A stretch of 51,486 nt of DNA. Origin: Archaeoglobaceae archaeon (lineage in GTDB: Archaea; Halobacteriota; Archaeoglobi; Archaeoglobales; Archaeoglobaceae). Below are positions 19,647 to 50,230 of this stretch, piece after piece. The first letter of the stretch is position 1. The number at the start of each line of letters is the position of its first letter. The stretch is taken from positions 1 to 51,486 of the forward strand of contig JALWDS010000005.1 in assembly GCA_027036775.1 (NCBI GenBank). Direction: 5' to 3'. A program made the position numbers and the translations under genes. The notes below the pieces were generated by a model. The model ran no database searches. It was given only the letters and a program-made list of their open reading frames with translations, and was not told where the DNA came from.

Positions 19647-21056
19647 TCACCCAAACTCCAAACACCTCTTTATGGCGATGGGTATCTTCTCAATTAATTC
19701 AACTGCGGTGAAGTTGTAACCCATCTCCTCACAGCAAATGTCTCCAGCCAAACCGTTCACGAAAGCTCCAGCACTCGCACTCCAGAAAGCATCGTTCAAG
19801 GCAAAGAATGCCCCAACAATCCCAGCCAAAACGTCTCCAGTTCCGCCTACGGTCATACCGACATTTCCTGTCCTGTTGAACCTGACCCTCTCTCCATCCG
19901 TAATCACATCCTCCTTCCCCTTGAGCAAGATAACCGAATTGGTTTCCCTCGCAACCCTCATAGCTTTATCGACGCTCACATCACCAAAGACCCTCTTAAA
20001 TTCGCCAGCGTGGGGTGTCATTACGCATTCGACATCCTCTGGAACGTTTTTCGTAATGGCTGAAGCATCCAAAACTACTTTTCTAACGTTTTCAAGCTTG
20101 AGGAACTCTTCAACGAAGTCCGTGAATTCATCACTACTTTCCACACCCATTCCCACGATTGCCACGTGATGCCTCTTCATCATTTCGTTTAAGCCATCCA
20201 AATCCTTCAAATTCAACTCCCTCACTATTAAATTCGGTGAAAAGCTCGCCACAACGTTCTTTATCTCCTTCGGAACTAAAGTTGTCACCAAATCCGCTCC
20301 AGCCTTGTAGCATGCCAAAGAAGTTAACGCGACAGCTCCGGTGTAACCTATTCCCCCTATAACCGCAATTCTCCCGTGCACCCCCTTGTGTCCATCAAAC
20401 CTCTTGTAAACCTTTTTAACATCTCCTACACCCGTTAACCTCTCAAACTCGCTTGGAATTCCTATGTCCTTCACAACGAGCTCTCCAACAACCTCCTTAG
20501 CTTTCAACAAACCCGGTTTCGGTTTGTGGAACGTTACGGTTAAGTCAGCCTTAACGCACTCCTTATACACTCCAGTATCTGGATTCAGTCCAGTTGGAAC
20601 ATCAACCGCAACTTTGTAGGCTTTCGAATCGTTTATGATTTGAACGGCCTTGGCAAACAAACCCCCCAGCTTGCCTCTAACTCCGGTTCCCAAGATTCCA
20701 TCTATTACGACATCGGCCTCAAACTCTGGTATCTCATCCCTAACCTCGTGGATTTCGTATCCAGCCTTCTTCAAAATCTCGAAGTTTCTCCTTGCGATTT
20801 CGGTCTTTATATCCCTCTCCCTACCGAGCAGAAACACCTTTACGTTAAAGTTCTTCAAAAACCTCGCACAAACGAATGCATCTCCGCCGTTGTTTCCCAA
20901 GCCAGCGAATATCACAACGTTGCAGGGTTCAAACCTCTTCAATATCTCTTCGGCCAATCCCCTTCCGGCGTTTTCCATGAGCTGTAGCCTTGATAAGCCG
21001 TGATACTCACAGTTTACATCTAAAACTGCCATCTCTTCACTTGTGATGGTATCCAT
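19647..21056 (-). CDS. nnr: Bifunctional NAD(P)H-hydrate epimerase / ADP-dependent dehydratase
   Basis: Two-domain repair enzyme for damaged NAD(P)H hydrates, 469 residues. The N-terminal half is the YjeF-type epimerase (LMENAGRGLAEEIL, then VVIFAGLGNNGGDAFVCARF, about 24-66). The C-terminal half, from about residue 220, is the ribokinase-like dehydratase, with IAVIGGIGYTGAVALTS, MTPHAGEFKRVF and GNVGMTVGGTGDVLAGIVGA, the catalytic aspartate in GTGD. Useful at high temperature, where hydration of NADH is fast. Runs into the ribose-bisphosphate isomerase gene with no gap. Confidence 0.93.
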   Translation of the reverse strand: MDTITSEEMAVLDVNCEYHGLSRLQLMENAGRGLAEEILKRFEPCNVVIFAGLGNNGGDAFVCARFLKNFNVKVFLLGRERDIKTEIARRNFEILKKAGYEIHEVRDEIPEFEADVVIDGILGTGVRGKLGGLFAKAVQIINDSKAYKVAVDVPTGLNPDTGVYKECVKADLTVTFHKPKPGLLKAKEVVGELVVKDIGIPSEFERLTGVGDVKKVYKRFDGHKGVHGRIAVIGGIGYTGAVALTSLACYKAGADLVTTLVPKEIKNVVASFSPNLIVRELNLKDLDGLNEMMKRHHVAIVGMGVESSDEFTDFVEEFLKLENVRKVVLDASAITKNVPEDVECVMTPHAGEFKRVFGDVSVDKAMRVARETNSVILLKGKEDVITDGERVRFNRTGNVGMTVGGTGDVLAGIVGAFFALNDAFWSASAGAFVNGLAGDICCEEMGYNFTAVELIEKIPIAIKRCLEFG

Positions 21057-21076
21057 GATTTTAACATGGCGATCAT

Positions 21077-21085
21077 CTTTAAAAA
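21077..21085. promoter_or_regulatory. Shared TATA box of nnr and the OB-fold gene
   Basis: CTTTAAAAA is the only TATA-like element in the 47-base gap between divergent ATG 21056 and ATG 21104. Its centre is 25 bases from one start and 23 from the other, so it could place the transcription starts at both start codons. Confidence 0.5.
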
Positions 21086-21103
21086 CGTTGACGAAATTGA
21101 ACT

Positions 21104-21853
21104 ATGGACGACGTAGTCGAGCACTTCAGAGGTTTGGTTGATGACGAAACTCTTGAGCTTCTCTCCAGATATGCCAGAGGTGAGAATGTTGATGTCGGAA
21201 GGAGACTTTCTGGCGTGGTCGTTGGAGTTGGAGATAGTCTGAAGGTTATGTGTAGTGAAGGGCTGATTGAAGTTCCCTTGAAGTGCTCCTTCGGATTCAA
21301 GCTTGGAGACGTTGTTAGGATTAGGTCGGACGTGATAAGGAGTGAAAGGGACTTCGAAGTCGTTGGTAACGTTTCGAAAATTATCGAAGGAGTTTTTCTC
21401 GGTAGGAACGGGTCGAGGTTCGCTTTGAGCGTGGGAAGGTCTGTTTCCATCTGCATCGGAGACGTTAAATGCGAGAGGGGTGACTTGTTGAGGATCAACG
21501 GATTCAAATTGGAAAATCACTTTTACGTTTTGAGATACGAGGTTTTGGGAAAGGGGAACGTTGGAGACGTTTGGGACGGGATAGGAGACTTAAAGCCTTT
21601 AAGGATCGTCAACTTGAAGGGTAGGGTAAGCGGGCTTTTCGGGGAGAGATTTAAGAGGGAGAAGATCGCTGTTATATACCTATCCGACGAAAGCGGTAGG
21701 ATTAGGGTCGTTCTTGTGGGTGAAAATGCGAGTTTGTATAGATATTTGGATGTTGGAGATTGGGTTGAAATTTACGAGGGATACACGAGGATAGGATACG
21801 ACGGGGAAATGGAGGTTTTGTGTGAAGATGGCTTGGCGATAAAAGTTTTTTAA
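21104..21853 (+). CDS. RPA-like OB-fold protein
   Basis: A 249-residue protein that resembles archaeal replication protein A pieces. A short helical head (VVEHFRGLVDDETLELLSRY) is followed by OB-like beta segments, and from about residue 163 by the clearest OB fold: LKPLRIVNLKGRVSGLFGE, then IAVIYLSDESGRIRVVLVGE and LDVGDWVEIYEGYTRIGYDG. The tryptophan usual in the VVLW position is a valine here. No zinc finger. It may bind single-stranded DNA or RNA as an accessory RPA. It starts only 48 bases from divergent nnr. Confidence 0.65.
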   Translation: MDDVVEHFRGLVDDETLELLSRYARGENVDVGRRLSGVVVGVGDSLKVMCSEGLIEVPLKCSFGFKLGDVVRIRSDVIRSERDFEVVGNVSKIIEGVFLGRNGSRFALSVGRSVSICIGDVKCERGDLLRINGFKLENHFYVLRYEVLGKGNVGDVWDGIGDLKPLRIVNLKGRVSGLFGERFKREKIAVIYLSDESGRIRVVLVGENASLYRYLDVGDWVEIYEGYTRIGYDGEMEVLCEDGLAIKVF

Positions 21854-22969: not shown

Positions 22970-23751
22970 TTCAGACACTCCACAGCGTAGTAGCTGAACT
23001 CAAGGGTTGAAACCCCTAAATAAATGCTTCTCCTGAATCCCCCATCCCTATTCTGAAGGCTCAATACGAACTCCAGAGTAACCTCATCTCTGCAATCCTT
23101 TTTGCACGTTCTCAAGATGGAGAGGGCGTAATACGTATCCTCCAAGTATGGCGGGTAGGAGTTTGGTTTCTTGGAGAATCCTCCGTTACATTTGTGCTTC
23201 ATGACAAAAGTCACCAGTCCGTCGTAGCAATCGACAACGCTTGAAGCGTAAAAAGTGTCCTTTAAGTTTGGCGAACTCACGCCGAAACCTTCGCCCCTCT
23301 TGAACCTCAACACGAACTCAACGACATCTTTCGGAATTTTTAATCCCAAGACCTTGAGAGATTCAGACAAAGAGTAGATGTCCTTTAGAACGTTGGGTAG
23401 GTCGAATTGGTAAGTTGCGGTAATACCTCCACTTTCGAGTTTCGTTTGAGGTATCTTCGTTAAACTTCTTATCTTGTTCAGTATCCATTCTCCGTAGTCC
23501 TTTGGGAGTTCGACTTCGAGGACTTCGAGAGTTTTGAAAACGTAGAATACGGGATAAATCTCCCTTCTGAGGTTCTTCTCGAGAAAATCCATTAGGTTTT
23601 CTCTTCTCGGAATTTCGCATCCTATCGTTTTGAGTATAGACACCGCGTAGAAAGTTTCTGGTAGAGTGGATTCGAGGGGTTTACAGAAACAGAAACCACC
23701 ATCTTTATTCTGCCTCTCAAGAACGAACCTCTTTAACTTTTCAACGTCTAT
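22951..23751 (-). CDS. Prenyltransferase/squalene-oxidase repeat protein with no normal start codon
   Basis: Alpha/alpha-barrel repeat protein. Repeats are marked by QNKDGGFCF, GVSSPNLKDTFYA, NGGFSKKPNS, LEDTYYALSIL and QNRDGGFRRS. The first in-frame GTG is 23643, but the conserved repeat QNKDGGF and a helix (VEKLKRFVLER) lie upstream of it in the same open frame, which is bounded by a stop a few codons before 23751. The only start-like codon there is ATA 23749-23751, which overlaps the previous stop codon (ATAG in place of ATGA) and follows GAGGTGGGA. So it is either ATA-initiated, start-lost, or made in truncated form from GTG 23643. Function unknown; the fold is used by cyclases and protein prenyltransferases. 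Confidence 0.7.
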   Translation of the reverse strand: MDVEKLKRFVLERQNKDGGFCFCKPLESTLPETFYAVSILKTIGCEIPRRENLMDFLEKNLRREIYPVFYVFKTLEVLEVELPKDYGEWILNKIRSLTKIPQTKLESGGITATYQFDLPNVLKDIYSLSESLKVLGLKIPKDVVEFVLRFKRGEGFGVSSPNLKDTFYASSVVDCYDGLVTFVMKHKCNGGFSKKPNSYPPYLEDTYYALSILRTCKKDCRDEVTLEFVLSLQNRDGGFRRSIYLGVSTLEFSYYAVECLKCLGMF

Positions 23752-24023
23752 CTTCCCACCTCTACTTTCCTTCTATCTCTGAATTCGATTTCGAACTCAA
23801 GCTTCTTGGCATCAGCATCGAACTCAACTTCGACCTCGATCGGATCGGTGAATCTGAACTTTATTATCCAATCTTCGGAGGAAACCTCTATCTCACCCTT
23901 TTCGACGTGATCCGCCAAGGCTCGAAGGAATTTGGCAACCTCATCTCTGCTCATGTGCGTTTCGAATTCGAACTCACCGCTCTCTATCAACTTCTTGTCC
24001 CTCCTGCTGATCAGTTCTACCAT
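23748..24023 (-). CDS. Amphi-Trp domain protein
   Basis: A small (91-residue) archaeal protein of the amphi-Trp type: a helical N-terminal part (THMSRDEVAKFLRALADHVEKG) followed by regular amphipathic beta strands with a central Trp (IEVSSEDWIIKFRF) and a strongly acidic/basic strand pair (VEVEFDADAKKLEFEIEFRD). Function not established. ATG 24023 lies 25 bases from the shared TATA centre and has no clear RBS, so a leaderless start is likely; GTG 24029 is an alternative. It is coupled to the prenyltransferase-repeat gene. Confidence 0.8.
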   Translation of the reverse strand: MVELISRRDKKLIESGEFEFETHMSRDEVAKFLRALADHVEKGEIEVSSEDWIIKFRFTDPIEVEVEFDADAKKLEFEIEFRDRRKVEVGR

Positions 24024-24043
24024 GTTCACTTGCAGAGGAAATT

Positions 24044-24053
24044 ACATATAAAA
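24044..24053. promoter_or_regulatory. Shared TATA box of the amphi-Trp and ArsR-type genes
   Basis: ACATATAAAA sits in the 52-base gap between divergent ATG 24023 and ATG 24076, about 25 and 27 bases from the two starts. Read leftwards it is TTTATATGT. Purine-rich BRE-like stretches flank it on both sides (GAGGAAATT read rightwards, AAGAAGT read leftwards). Confidence 0.55.
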
Positions 24054-24075
24054 CTTCTTAGGAAAACTATACTCG

Positions 24076-24348
24076 ATGATCCTCAAAGCCTTGGGGTCGG
24101 AGAAGAGGTTGATGATACTCAAAATTTTGACGAGGGGGGAAAAATGCGTCAGCGAAATAATGAAAGAACTCAGAATGGACGGGAAAACGGCGAAGTATCA
24201 TTTAGACATTCTCGAAAAGGCTGGACTGATCGAAGGCGAATACGTTGGTAGGAGAAGAGTTTACAGACTCGTCAAAGAGATTACGATCGAGATATCCCCT
24301 CCTCCAAAGAGGATTTTTAGAGTTACCGCATCAAAAAAGAATGTCTAA
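24076..24348 (+). CDS. ArsR-type winged-helix transcription regulator
   Basis: A 90-residue regulator with an ArsR/GntR-like winged helix: ILKALGSEKRLMILKILTRG, recognition region CVSEIMKELRMDGKTAKYHLD, then ILEKAGLIEGEYVGRRRVYRL as the wing. There is one cysteine only, so it is not a classic metal sensor. It may regulate the divergent amphi-Trp/crcB cluster with which it shares a promoter region; inference by position. It overlaps the convergent mqnD gene by 18 bases. Confidence 0.85.
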   Translation: MILKALGSEKRLMILKILTRGEKCVSEIMKELRMDGKTAKYHLDILEKAGLIEGEYVGRRRVYRLVKEITIEISPPPKRIFRVTASKKNV

Positions 24349-25137: not shown

Positions 25138-25164
25138 GAAGATGGATTTCGCTCGTTGTATAAA

Positions 25165-25187
25165 CGTTTGTCGTTAGTCTTATAATT
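25165..25187. promoter_or_regulatory. Divergent promoters of mqnD and pgiA
   Basis: Two distinct TATA-like elements: GTTTATACA read leftwards (about 25165-25173), roughly 30 bases from ATG 25137, and CTTATAATT read rightwards (about 25179-25187), roughly 24 bases from ATG 25206. Both suggest short or absent leaders. Confidence 0.45.
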
Positions 25188-25205
25188 GAGCTTGTAACTT
25201 GGGTT

Positions 25206-30234: not shown

Positions 30235-31744
<1,510 letters not shown>

Positions 31745-31752
31745 AACGGAGC

Positions 31753-31785
31753 ACGCCCACCGGGCCCAATTGCTGGCAAGCCCAT
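31753..31785 (+). other. 3' arm of the pre-16S bulge-helix-bulge stem
   Basis: Partner of 30172-30204. Its outer end is immediately followed by the first base of tRNA-Ala, so RNase P cutting and splicing endonuclease cutting act only about 17 bases apart. Confidence 0.93.
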
Positions 31786-31859
31786 GGGCTCGTAGCTCAG
31801 CCTGGTAGAGCGCCGCCTTTGCAAGGCGGAGGCCTCGGGTTCAAATCCCGACGAGTCCA
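31786..31859 (+). tRNA. tRNA-Ala (TGC) in the 16S-23S spacer
   Basis: Cloverleaf of 74 nt: acceptor GGGCTCG with CGAGTCC contains the G3-U70 wobble pair that marks alanine tRNAs; the anticodon loop TTTGCAA gives TGC; the T arm is CTCGGGTTCAAATCCCGA. No CCA is encoded. A spacer tRNA-Ala is usual in euryarchaeal rRNA operons. Confidence 0.97.
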
Positions 31860-31928
31860 TTTATTACATGCACCCGGCGATGAAAGTCGTCGGGGAAGGG
31901 TTGATGCCCCTATATGGGGCAAGTGAAA

Positions 31929-31964
31929 CCGTGTAGAGGTCGTCCCCAGATGCAGACTGGGACC

Positions 31965-31971
<7 letters not shown>
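31929..31971 (+). other. 5' arm of the pre-23S bulge-helix-bulge stem
   Basis: The 21 bases at 31929-31949 pair with 34957-34977, ATGC (31950-31953) with GCAT (34950-34953), and the 15 bases at 31957-31971 with 34935-34949. The bulges are AGA on this strand and AAA on the other. It is again a perfect bulge-helix-bulge. Confidence 0.93.
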
Positions 31972-34934
<2,963 letters not shown>

Positions 34935-34941
<7 letters not shown>

Positions 34942-34977
34942 GGTCCCAGGCATAAACTGGGGACGACCTCTACACGG
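34935..34977 (+). other. 3' arm of the pre-23S bulge-helix-bulge stem
   Basis: Partner of 31929-31971. It ends only about 5 bases before the hypF TATA box, and no T-run terminator separates them. Confidence 0.93.
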
Positions 34978-39433: not shown

Positions 39434-39568
39434 TGGGGCCGGTGGGATTTGAACCCACGACCAGCGGGTCTCTTCGGTCAGAGCTCCAACGGGTCATCAC
39501 ACCTCAGCAGACCCATTGGTCATCACACCGCTGGAGCCCGCCGCGCTTCCTGGCTACGCCACGACCCC
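39434..39568 (-). tRNA. tRNA-Trp (CCA) with intron
   Basis: Exon 1 is 39531-39568, exon 2 is 39434-39469, and the intron is 39470-39530 (61 nt), inserted after position 37 as usual. Acceptor GGGGTCG pairs with CGGCCCC (one U-G); the anticodon stem is GCGGG/CCCGC; the anticodon is CCA; the T arm is CGTGGGTTCAAATCCCACC split around the loop. Around the splice sites a bulge-helix-bulge can be drawn with 3-base bulges AGC and AGA and a 4-bp helix that has one C-A mismatch. No CCA is encoded. Confidence 0.95.
39470..39530 (-). ncRNA. Box C/D guide RNA within the tRNA-Trp intron
   Basis: Read on the minus strand: box C GTGATGA (39520-39526), box D' CTGA (39504-39507), box C' GTGATGA (39494-39500), box D CTGA (39478-39481). 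The base five before box D pairs with C34 of the anticodon, and the base five before D' pairs with C39. So it should direct 2'-O-methylation of C34 and C39 of its own tRNA, as known for the haloarchaeal tRNA-Trp intron (C34 and U39). Confidence 0.9.
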
Positions 39569-42915: not shown

Positions 42916-42987
42916 GGGGGCACTTCGAGTGTCGTAATTTAAAGATACCACCGATGGGTTTTTATTGATAAAAATAAACTTACAGAT

Positions 42988-45199: not shown

Positions 45200-45244
45200 C
45201 ATCGCGTGAATAACGTTAAGAACACTTTTCAAACTTTTCCCATC

Positions 45245-46513
45245 GTGAACGTCGAGGAGTTCGTCGGAGTTAGGTGCTACATCACGAGGTATGAGGGTAT
45301 AAACGGGAGCTTTAAGGAGAACGTTGAGGACTTTTACGTTGAGGAGGTAGCGGATTTGAAAATGGGGGAAGGTGAATGGGTAATCGTGAGGGTCAAAAAG
45401 AGGAACTGGGATACCATGAACTTCGTCAGGGTCCTCTCTAACAAGCTCAGAATAAGCCAAAAGAGGATTAAGTTTGCGGGAACGAAGGATAAAAGGGCCG
45501 TAAGCGTTCAATACTTCTCAATCAGAGTTAAAGATAAGAGCGAAGTTGAGAGGTTGAGGGATATTAAAATCAAGGATGCGGAAATTGAGATCGTTGGATA
45601 CAGCCCTAAACCGATCGAGTTGGGAGAGCTTAGGGGTAACCTGTTTAGGGTGAAGATTAGGAAAGCCAAAAACGTCGAGAACATTCCAAAGATAGAGGAA
45701 GAGCTGATTGCAAGGGGAACTCCAAACTTCTTCGGATTACAGCGTTTCGGTTCCATAAGGTTCGTAACCCACGAAGTTGGTATGTGCATACTCAAGAGGG
45801 ATTACGAAAACGCCTTCTGGATTTACGTTGCAAAGCCGTTCGAAGGTGAAAACGAGGAGGCGAGAAAGGTTAGAGAGATACTTTGGGAGACGAGGGATGT
45901 CAAGTTCGGTTTGAGAGAACTGCCCAAATACCTCAGATACGAGAGAGTTCTCTTGCAGAAGTTGAGAGAGTGTGGAGACGAGAAGAGAGCCCTACTATCT
46001 TTGCCTGACAACCTTAAGATGATGTTCGTCCACGCCTACCAATCATACATATTCAACAACGTTCTTTCCGACAGAATAGAGGAGTTTAAAAGCCTGAAAG
46101 TCGTTGAGAAGGGTGATTGGGTTGATTTCGTCAAATTAAACGAACACTACACGTTTGCCGAGGATTTCGTTAGGGTTCACGACTACAACTACAAGAGGGT
46201 GAAGTTCCTCGTTGAAAGGGGTATGTGCTCTCTGGCCATACCCCTACCGGGTTACGAAACAAAACTGGGGGATGACTGGACTTCCGAAAGGATAAGGCAT
46301 TACTTGGAGAGAGACGGTATAACTTTAAAAGACTTCAAGCACGAGTTTAGGGAGTTCTCCTCTAAGGGTAGCTACAGGGTGGCGGATATGTTGATAGAAC
46401 ACACGAACTTCAAATACGAGTTGAACGAAGATGTTAGATTCAGCTTTTATTTACCCAAGGGTTGTTATGCGACGGTATTGCTTAGGGAGTTTGTAAAAAA
46501 GCCCCTATTCTGA
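45245..46513 (+). CDS. truD: tRNA pseudouridine synthase TruD
   Basis: Makes pseudouridine 13 in tRNA. 422 residues from GTG 45245; the reading frame to the left runs into aroC on the other strand and has no homology to the family. The catalytic block is [19 protein letters not shown] (the aspartate in KDK), and the family shows NFFGLQRFG and [16 protein letters not shown] further on. Its end overlaps the DUF5611 gene by 9 bases. It lies only 45 bases from the divergent aroC start. Confidence 0.93.
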
Positions 46514-46813
46514 TTCAACCTCCTTTTTCATCATCTTCGCCCTCTCCTTTGCTGTGTAACCCGTCAGTTCCTCCAAAAACTTGTTGTAGGTCTTTATAGT
46601 TTGAATTGCAACATCTTCTGGAACGTTGGGATTGGTTTTTGTTTCGACGCATAGCCTCCCGTTCTCAATCCAAACCTTCATAACCTCCATAGCTCCAAAG
46701 CTTGCGAAGTAAAACTTGCCTTCCCTCCTGTAATCCTTAAAGAACTTCTTCAAGAGCTCTTCAAGCCTTTCCTCGCTCGCCTTGTAACCCCTCTTAAACC
46801 TGTACTCTCGCAT
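46505..46813 (-). CDS. DUF5611 family protein
   Basis: A 102-residue archaeal protein of unknown function. Recognised by the basic start MREYRFKRGYKASEERLEEL, a beta sheet region with YFASFGAMEVMKVWIENG and RLCVETKTNP, and the conserved end YNKFLEELTGYTAKERAKMM. Small alpha/beta fold. It shares a TATA box with the divergent PAC2 gene. Confidence 0.85.
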   Translation of the reverse strand: MREYRFKRGYKASEERLEELLKKFFKDYRREGKFYFASFGAMEVMKVWIENGRLCVETKTNPNVPEDVAIQTIKTYNKFLEELTGYTAKERAKMMKKEVESE

Positions 46814-46833
46814 GAAAATCGATCGTTAAAAAC

Positions 46834-46843
46834 CTTATATACT
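46834..46843. promoter_or_regulatory. Shared TATA box of the DUF5611 and PAC2 genes
   Basis: CTTATATACT lies in the middle of the 48-base gap between ATG 46813 and ATG 46862, 25 and 24 bases from them. Read leftwards it is AGTATATAAG. A-rich stretches that could act as BRE lie on both sides (TTAAAAAC rightwards, ACAGAAAG leftwards). Confidence 0.6.
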
Positions 46844-46861
46844 TTCTGTCGGAGTTTACTT

Positions 46862-47578
46862 ATGGAAACCAAGGTTGTAGTTGAGAGGGTTGACGTAAAA
46901 AATCCGATAGTTTTCACGAGCTTTCCCGGAATTGGGCTCGTTGGGACTATTGCGAGCTCGCATTTGATAACCGAGCTGAACTTGGAGTGGATAGGTGTTG
47001 TGGAATCCAAGGACTTGCCTCCCGTAGCTTCTCTGATGGACGGAGTGATACTACCACCCGTGAGGATTTACCAGAGCAGAACGCTCGAATTCGTTTTGAT
47101 ACACTCCGATGTCCCAATATTTCCCCACATAGCATACGAAATGAGCGAGAAGATACTTGACTGGGTCATTGAAATAAACGCCAGGAGGATATACTCTCTT
47201 GCTGGAGTTGCAACATTCGAAGATAAGAAGAGGGTCTTCGGTGCTGCAACTTCTAAGGAACTTTTGGATGAGATAAAGGACTACGTCGAAATATTCAAGA
47301 GCGGAACGATATCGGGTATAGCTGGAAGCATTTTAAACGAGTGCGTTGTTAGGAAATTCCCCGGTTTGGCTTTGCTGGGAGAGACGTTGGGATTCAATCC
47401 CGATCCGAGAGCGTCTGCAGAATTAATAAAGACTTTGAACAAGATTTTCGGATGGAACGTTAGCGTTGAGAAACTGATAAAAGAAGCGGAAGTAATAGAG
47501 GCCCAGATGCAGAAGTTGGCCGAGCAGGCGAGAATGCAGGAGGTTGGTAGAAGGGAGGAGTTGCCCATGTATGGGTGA
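46862..47578 (+). CDS. PAC2-family proteasome assembly chaperone
   Basis: A 238-residue protein of the PAC2/PbaA family (VFTSFPGIGLVGTIASSHLI near 17-36; PPVASLMDGVILPPVRIY; then GTISGIAGSILNECVVRKFPGLALLGETLG). In archaea, PbaA and PbaB help in proteasome assembly or handle unfolded proteins; the family also includes ATP-grasp-linked forms. The C-terminal tail is charged and coiled (EKLIKEAEVIEAQMQKLAEQ). The next gene follows with 4 bases between. Confidence 0.9.
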   Translation: METKVVVERVDVKNPIVFTSFPGIGLVGTIASSHLITELNLEWIGVVESKDLPPVASLMDGVILPPVRIYQSRTLEFVLIHSDVPIFPHIAYEMSEKILDWVIEINARRIYSLAGVATFEDKKRVFGAATSKELLDEIKDYVEIFKSGTISGIAGSILNECVVRKFPGLALLGETLGFNPDPRASAELIKTLNKIFGWNVSVEKLIKEAEVIEAQMQKLAEQARMQEVGRREELPMYG

Positions 47579-49915: not shown

Positions 49916-49960
49916 GGGTGAAATTGGATAGTTCTATAAATACGTTTTCCAAGTTTGAAC

Positions 49961-50230
49961 ATGAAACTCCAGCTAACCTTAAAGGACTTCGAAGATTGGT
50001 TGAGGGAGAGAGGATACGACAGGAGGATGGGTAAGGAGAACTTCGAGATGTTTTTGGAAATAGGATTGGCCGGTTTGCTCTTTATGAACAGCACGCTTCT
50101 GATGAGCTACATACTGTCGAATCTGGGATTCCCATCCGAAAGGCTTTCGGAGAAGGTTAGGTTCGAAGTTGGGAAGAGGGTTAGGGAGATAAGAGCTTCT
50201 AAGGATTCACTGGAAATAGCTTTAGACTAA
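49961..50230 (+). CDS. Unknown small helical protein, 89 residues
   Basis: ATG 49961 fits a leaderless start: TATA CTATAAATAC (about 49934-49943) is some 24 bases upstream, and a TTG two codons earlier is less likely. Entirely helical in pattern; a hydrophobic stretch (FLEIGLAGLLFMNSTLLMSY) suggests a membrane-associated or core helix; then KVRFEVGKRVREIRASKDSL is basic. Not recognised. It overlaps the convergent permease gene by 32 bases. Confidence 0.6.
   Translation: MKLQLTLKDFEDWLRERGYDRRMGKENFEMFLEIGLAGLLFMNSTLLMSYILSNLGFPSERLSEKVRFEVGKRVREIRASKDSLEIALD

Follow-up and report, generated by a model that had tools for sequence, protein, structure and literature searches.

The 48 bases between the divergent genes for a DUF5611 protein and a PAC2-family protein (46814-46861) are likely, judging from their sequence, to act as one bidirectional promoter. 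We extend the same reading to the gap at 21057-21103, probably to the one at 24024-24075, and to a class of divergent gene pairs across Archaeoglobaceae. In the mechanism proposed here, TBP would bind a near-symmetric TATA box that lies halfway from one ATG to the other, TFB would dock on the BRE of either side and so set the direction, and RNA polymerase would start about 25 bases from the box axis, at or next to the ATG, to give a leaderless mRNA either way. Provided that transcription does start at the ATG, the spacing of the two ATGs would be dictated by the geometry of a single pre-initiation complex and come to about 46-54 bases. Two complexes presumably could not occupy one box at once, and the genes may compete. 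Archaeal TBP is known to bind TATA symmetrically, with the direction set by TFB (PMC6640164), and competition between the two directions has been described in E. coli only when one of them is strongly activated (PMC12825309).

Genomes, gene calling and promoter motif

Coordinates refer to the window, the whole stretch of 51,486 nucleotides that was analyzed, which is part of G000:C5 in a 1.53 Mb Archaeoglobaceae genome (G000). For the PAC2 protein of the window, the closest relatives with a name come from records of Archaeoglobaceae, Archaeoglobus, Geoglobus and Ferroglobus. The window also carries a complete 16S - tRNA-Ala - 23S rRNA operon (30235-34944, + strand), inside which the listed ORFs are spurious, and a tRNA gene missed by ARAGORN (39434-39568, - strand), whose intron matches the C/D box guide RNA sR3 at 39476-39530; this intron-borne guide is consistent with the known archaeal pre-tRNA-Trp intron guide.

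The survey sample comprised 2.27 Mb from five Archaeoglobaceae genomes. Start codons were predicted with a gene caller written for the survey, which used coding statistics and start-codon type and excluded any promoter signal. Divergent pairs were reduced by homology to 313 non-redundant pairs. A further 0.4 Mb from G038, a genome of the same phylum taken from its relatives to be a methanogen, served as control. The position weight matrix for BRE-TATA was trained on co-directional genes only; it has the consensus GAAAAATTTATATAC and a palindromic axis approximately 26 bases from the ATG.

Leaderless promoter profile

In each of the five Archaeoglobaceae genomes, unambiguous starts were preceded by an A-run (BRE) at -34 to -31 relative to the ATG and, at -30 to -23, by a TATA box with its axis near -26. 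The starts of these genomes are leaderless in profile, the distance of the TATA box placing the predicted transcription start at the ATG. The same upstream profile in the G038 control contained no TATA box at -30 to -23 and showed instead a G-rich, Shine-Dalgarno-like signal; its 0.4 Mb held no divergent gap below 56 bases. Two haloarchaeal plasmids of 300 kb each, from a second leaderless group, gave an A+T signal near -28 to -25 and were uninformative as a test of the gap class, since nearly all of their divergent gaps exceeded 75 bases. Additionally, a second conserved signal precedes the ATGs in G000-G015, made up of A at positions -11 and -10 followed by T at about -8 to -6, and in sequence it resembles a promoter-proximal element.

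Shared boxes at three loci of the window

The sequence-only reading had placed one central TATA box in each of three divergent gaps, and this description held: the gaps measure 48, 47 and 52 bases, and the box axes lie 22-30 bases from each ATG (Table 1). The start codons are backed by alignments with homologs. For the DUF5611/PAC2 pair the axis is 24.5 bases from either ATG and the two-sidedness of the box has a shuffle p of 0.02, and for the NAD(P)H-hydrate repair/OB-fold pair the distances are 22.5 and 25.5 bases with a shuffle p of 0.01. Both of these boxes have exactly one axis common to the two directions (starts placed from the ATGs). The Amphi-Trp/ArsR box is the weakest of the three, with two axes 2 bp apart, at 29.5 and 25.5 bases from the ATGs, and a shuffle p of 0.10. 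By this sequence measure, the single loci lie only modestly beyond chance (shuffle p 0.01-0.10), and the weight is carried by the statistics of the class.

Table 1. Genes and promoter boxes at divergent gaps of the window.
Feature	Position	Strand	Details
NAD(P)H-hydrate repair gene	19647..21056	-	ATG 21056; PF01256 + PF03853 (YjeF_N, Carb_kinase domains); residue-1 alignment in most relatives, supporting the start
Shared box, NAD(P)H-hydrate repair/OB-fold	21072..21091		axis 21081.5; + score 4.0, - score 5.9
OB-fold protein gene	21104..21853	+	PF01336
Amphi-Trp domain gene	23748..24023	-	PF20068; G003 alignment from residue 1
Shared box, Amphi-Trp/ArsR	24037..24058		axes 24046.5 and 24048.5; + score 2.1, - score 5.3
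ArsR-type HTH gene	24076..24348	+	PF01022; G003 ortholog aligns from residue 2
aroC/truD gap, crossed promoters	45206..45244		axes 45218.5 (truD), 45229.5 (aroC); offset -11; scores 3.5, 3.5
DUF5611 gene	46505..46813	-	ATG 46813; PF18446, E 9.5e-32; orthologs align from residue 1
Shared BRE-TATA-BRE box, DUF5611/PAC2	46828..46847		axis 46837.5; + score 9.2, - score 3.6
PAC2-family gene	46862..47578	+	ATG 46862; PF09754, E 1.7e-52; ortholog alignments begin at residue 1 or 2
Shared-box candidate	49927..49952		gap 49916-49960 (45 bases); axes 49936.5, 49938.5; + 3.5, - 6.0

The window holds one more candidate for a shared box, and the + strand ORF beside it (49961-50230) gave no match in a Pfam search.

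Conservation of the DUF5611/PAC2 gap

The DUF5611 and PAC2 genes are divergent throughout Archaeoglobaceae and in further lineages. Among 15 orthologous pairs the gap was 48-50 bases in eight and 71-116 bases in four, and in the other three it becomes 48-49 bases if the start is the second of two in-frame ATGs. Further relatives had gaps of 49-50 bases (L012, L017 and L021), and others of about 55 and 58 bases. The boxes differ in their letters and keep their symmetry, as in aaaaggtataatatactttttt (L080), ggaaaaggataaataagctttta (L054) and aaaaaccttatatactttc (window). On these predicted starts, the gap of 48-50 bases appears to be kept in most Archaeoglobaceae lineages despite sequence divergence. 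As for the other two loci, the OB-fold ortholog in G002 again points away from this neighbour, across an inferred gap of about 49 bases, and for the Amphi-Trp/ArsR pair in G003 the inferred gap is about 70 bases, outside the 46-54 class. An Archaeoglobaceae-like PAC2 protein (75% identity) was also encoded on DTXZ01000068.1 (L060), a contig labelled as Aquificales bacterium that is probably misbinned.

Gap-length classes across five genomes

Among the 313 pairs, the number of pairs per base of gap was 3.25 at 36-39 bases, 1.0 at 40-43, 4.1 at 46-54, 1.1 at 55-67 and 2.65 at 68-84, with band edges that were set after the data had been seen. Gaps of 46-54 bases were enriched (37 pairs vs 20-22 expected under a smoothed null, p <0.001) and gaps of 55-67 bases were depleted (14 vs 29 expected, p 0.0004). 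Both effects persisted when the window was left out and, more weakly, when G000 was left out. A narrow band of 47-52 bases was marginally enriched (p 0.02-0.06), and no enrichment of this band was seen without G000. Thus, of the fixed-length bidirectional class of divergent leaderless genes that had been proposed from the window, a class of pairs sharing one two-sided TATA box was recovered in five genomes and replicated without the window or G000, and the fixed length of 47-52 bases gave way to a band of 46-54. Silverman's test for several modes in the histogram gave p ~0.1, and helical phasing or periodicity of the gap lengths was not significant. A likelihood test with the exact predicted shape of shared-box gaps was marginal (p 0.05-0.10), because the real shared gaps are 1-2 bases shorter. 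Pairs whose starts are supported by homologs gave the same gap clusters, with some orthologs counted twice. The gap histogram by itself is suggestive.

Box sharing as a property of the class

The sequence of the boxes provided stronger evidence, and this test is independent of the gap histogram. In gaps of 44-56 bases, the best boxes of the two genes fell on exactly one axis in 16 of 42 pairs, vs 3.5 expected by permutation. The reverse-strand BRE-TATA score on the box axis had a median of 4.3 in the 46-54 gaps and of 1.2 at co-directional promoters (p 8e-11), and it exceeded 3 in 72% of the class vs about 20% of co-directional promoters. When each pair contributed a single value, the difference remained at p 1e-5, and at p 4e-4 without G000. 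No rise in the reverse-strand score was seen in gaps of 36-39 or 68-110 bases. By this raised score, a BRE-like signal flanks the box to left and right as a property of the class, and the two-sidedness of the box is clearly more marked in the 46-54 gaps than in other gap classes.

Crossed and back-to-back promoters

Gaps of 32-39 bases mostly contained two boxes in crossed order, each TATA lying between the other TATA and the start that this other one serves, and both boxes scored above 3 in 63% of these gaps vs 1.6% of shuffled gaps. The aroC/truD pair belongs to this crossed class. It had been described as a gap of 45 bases with a weak central box; with starts at 45202 or 45205 and at 45245, the gap is actually 39-42 bases, and its two boxes, 11 bp apart and crossed, rule it out as a member of the shared-box group. 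The companion claim that gaps of at least 68 bases carry two separate TATA boxes was borne out, as the window gaps of 68, 72 and 82 bases have boxes 22-29 bp apart.

Back-to-back pairs were also seen to pile up at gaps of 68-73 bases (e.g., 25138-25205 and 42916-42987 in the window), with axes 20-23 bp apart, which is the shortest distance without overlap of two BREs.

Over all pairs with two scoring boxes, axis offsets fell at -18 to -10 (14 pairs), at -3 to +2 (21 pairs) and then from +18 upward, with two pairs at -9 to -4 and four at +3 to +17, an avoidance that is partly built in, since badly overlapping motifs cannot both score. The motif-free gap histogram dips at places matching the avoided offsets. 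A sequence-compatibility cost computed from the one-promoter motif had local optima at offsets of 0, about -12 and from 20 up, in agreement with the classes; as a full account it was rejected, since it allows an unfilled offset of about +10 and does not predict the whole histogram. An origin of the crossed class in a -10 region resembling the TATA-BRE of the other promoter was likewise set aside, having produced only a slight local maximum at -12.5. We give an even chance to a packing rule for two pre-initiation complexes at divergent leaderless genes of Archaeoglobaceae, under which the boxes coincide (axes within 3 bp, gaps 46-54), cross (10-18 bp, gaps of about 32-39) or lie back to back, each with its own BRE (at least 18-20 bp, gaps from 68), and avoid the offsets in between. 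If true, crossed boxes would make up a second type of bidirectional promoter with interference.

In G013, contig 1, an identical 1.2 kb segment occurs twice (approximately 54546-55761 and 84748-85963); it carries a divergent pair with a 36-base gap, encoding a small protein and a 323 aa protein, and looks like a recent copy of a mobile element.

Alternative explanations

A near-palindromic TATA box could look two-sided and yet serve one gene only, the other gene starting from a weak or TATA-less promoter or with a leader. Within the motif, the TATA part is indeed palindromic, and about one co-directional promoter in five also scores above 3 on the reverse strand. What makes this explanation unlikely is that no class other than 46-54 has a raised reverse score, which there is seen on both strands and where a second ATG stands at the right distance, and that the share of boxes passing the same threshold there is far above the co-directional one. 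Somewhat less likely still is that there is no spacing class at all, a compact genome having drifted to short gaps and the bands being sampling noise with start-calling error. The outcome of Silverman's test, the lack of periodicity and the post hoc band edges all fit such drift; against it, the enrichment at 46-54 and the depletion at 55-67 survive removal of the window or of G000, the sequence test makes no use of the histogram, and homolog-supported starts repeat the clusters, though with some orthologs counted twice.

It is common for a regulator and its target to form a divergent pair with an operator at its centre. The central palindrome might accordingly be read as an operator of an adjacent regulator, such as the ArsR-type protein encoded at 24076, with its symmetry owed to a dimeric repressor. 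One of the three pairs does encode an ArsR-type HTH protein, and this general pattern lends the idea some appeal; the other two pairs are without a recognisable regulator, and the element common to these unrelated pairs is the general BRE-TATA motif, which leaves the operator explanation highly improbable. One box serving two leaderless genes is the reading that we retain.

Relation to known bidirectional promoters and significance

The promoter mechanism itself is already known from Pyrococcus furiosus, and the loci of the window are further examples. In that archaeon, differential RNA-seq and in vitro transcription revealed BRE-TATA-BRE promoters with opposite start sites 49-50 bp apart, and a single element drove both directions in vitro from starts 49 bp apart (PMC6640164). 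The likeness lies in a single TATA box, flanked by two BREs and placed halfway from one start to the opposite one. The analysis of the motif there, however, centred on antisense by-products at leadered head-to-tail genes and set aside the head-to-head ones, which have a median gap of 117 bp (PMC6640164). In Archaeoglobaceae, by contrast, both outputs are predicted to be leaderless mRNAs, so that the ATG-to-ATG gap itself would be set.

Bidirectional promoters were generalised to bacteria and archaea by Warman et al. 2021, as relayed in PMC10268837 and PMC12825309. According to these papers, they share with the present class a symmetric core element that can be read either way, preferred start distances and, as predicted for the present class, mutual exclusion of polymerases, whereas in bacteria the two directions share the -10 box and opposite starts are 18 bp apart (also 10 and 23 bp). 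In Saccharolobus solfataricus, divergent promoters likewise lie close enough for ChIP-seq signals to merge (PMC8448881), but the available portion of that paper describes neither a shared box nor a gap class. New, possibly, are the imprint on gene spacing and the crossed-promoter class (gaps 32-39); neither the crossed class nor a spacing imprint on leaderless pairs was found in the literature searched, a body that took in few subscription journals.

If the proposed reading is true, promoter sharing in a leaderless archaeon could be told from how far apart two start codons lie, with no need for RNA data and in many genomes. It would single out the gene pairs that have to compete for one TBP/TFB complex, and would offer a simple test of the packing limit for two archaeal initiation complexes. 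The DUF5611/PAC2 pair, whose genes stay together throughout the order, offers an immediate test case.
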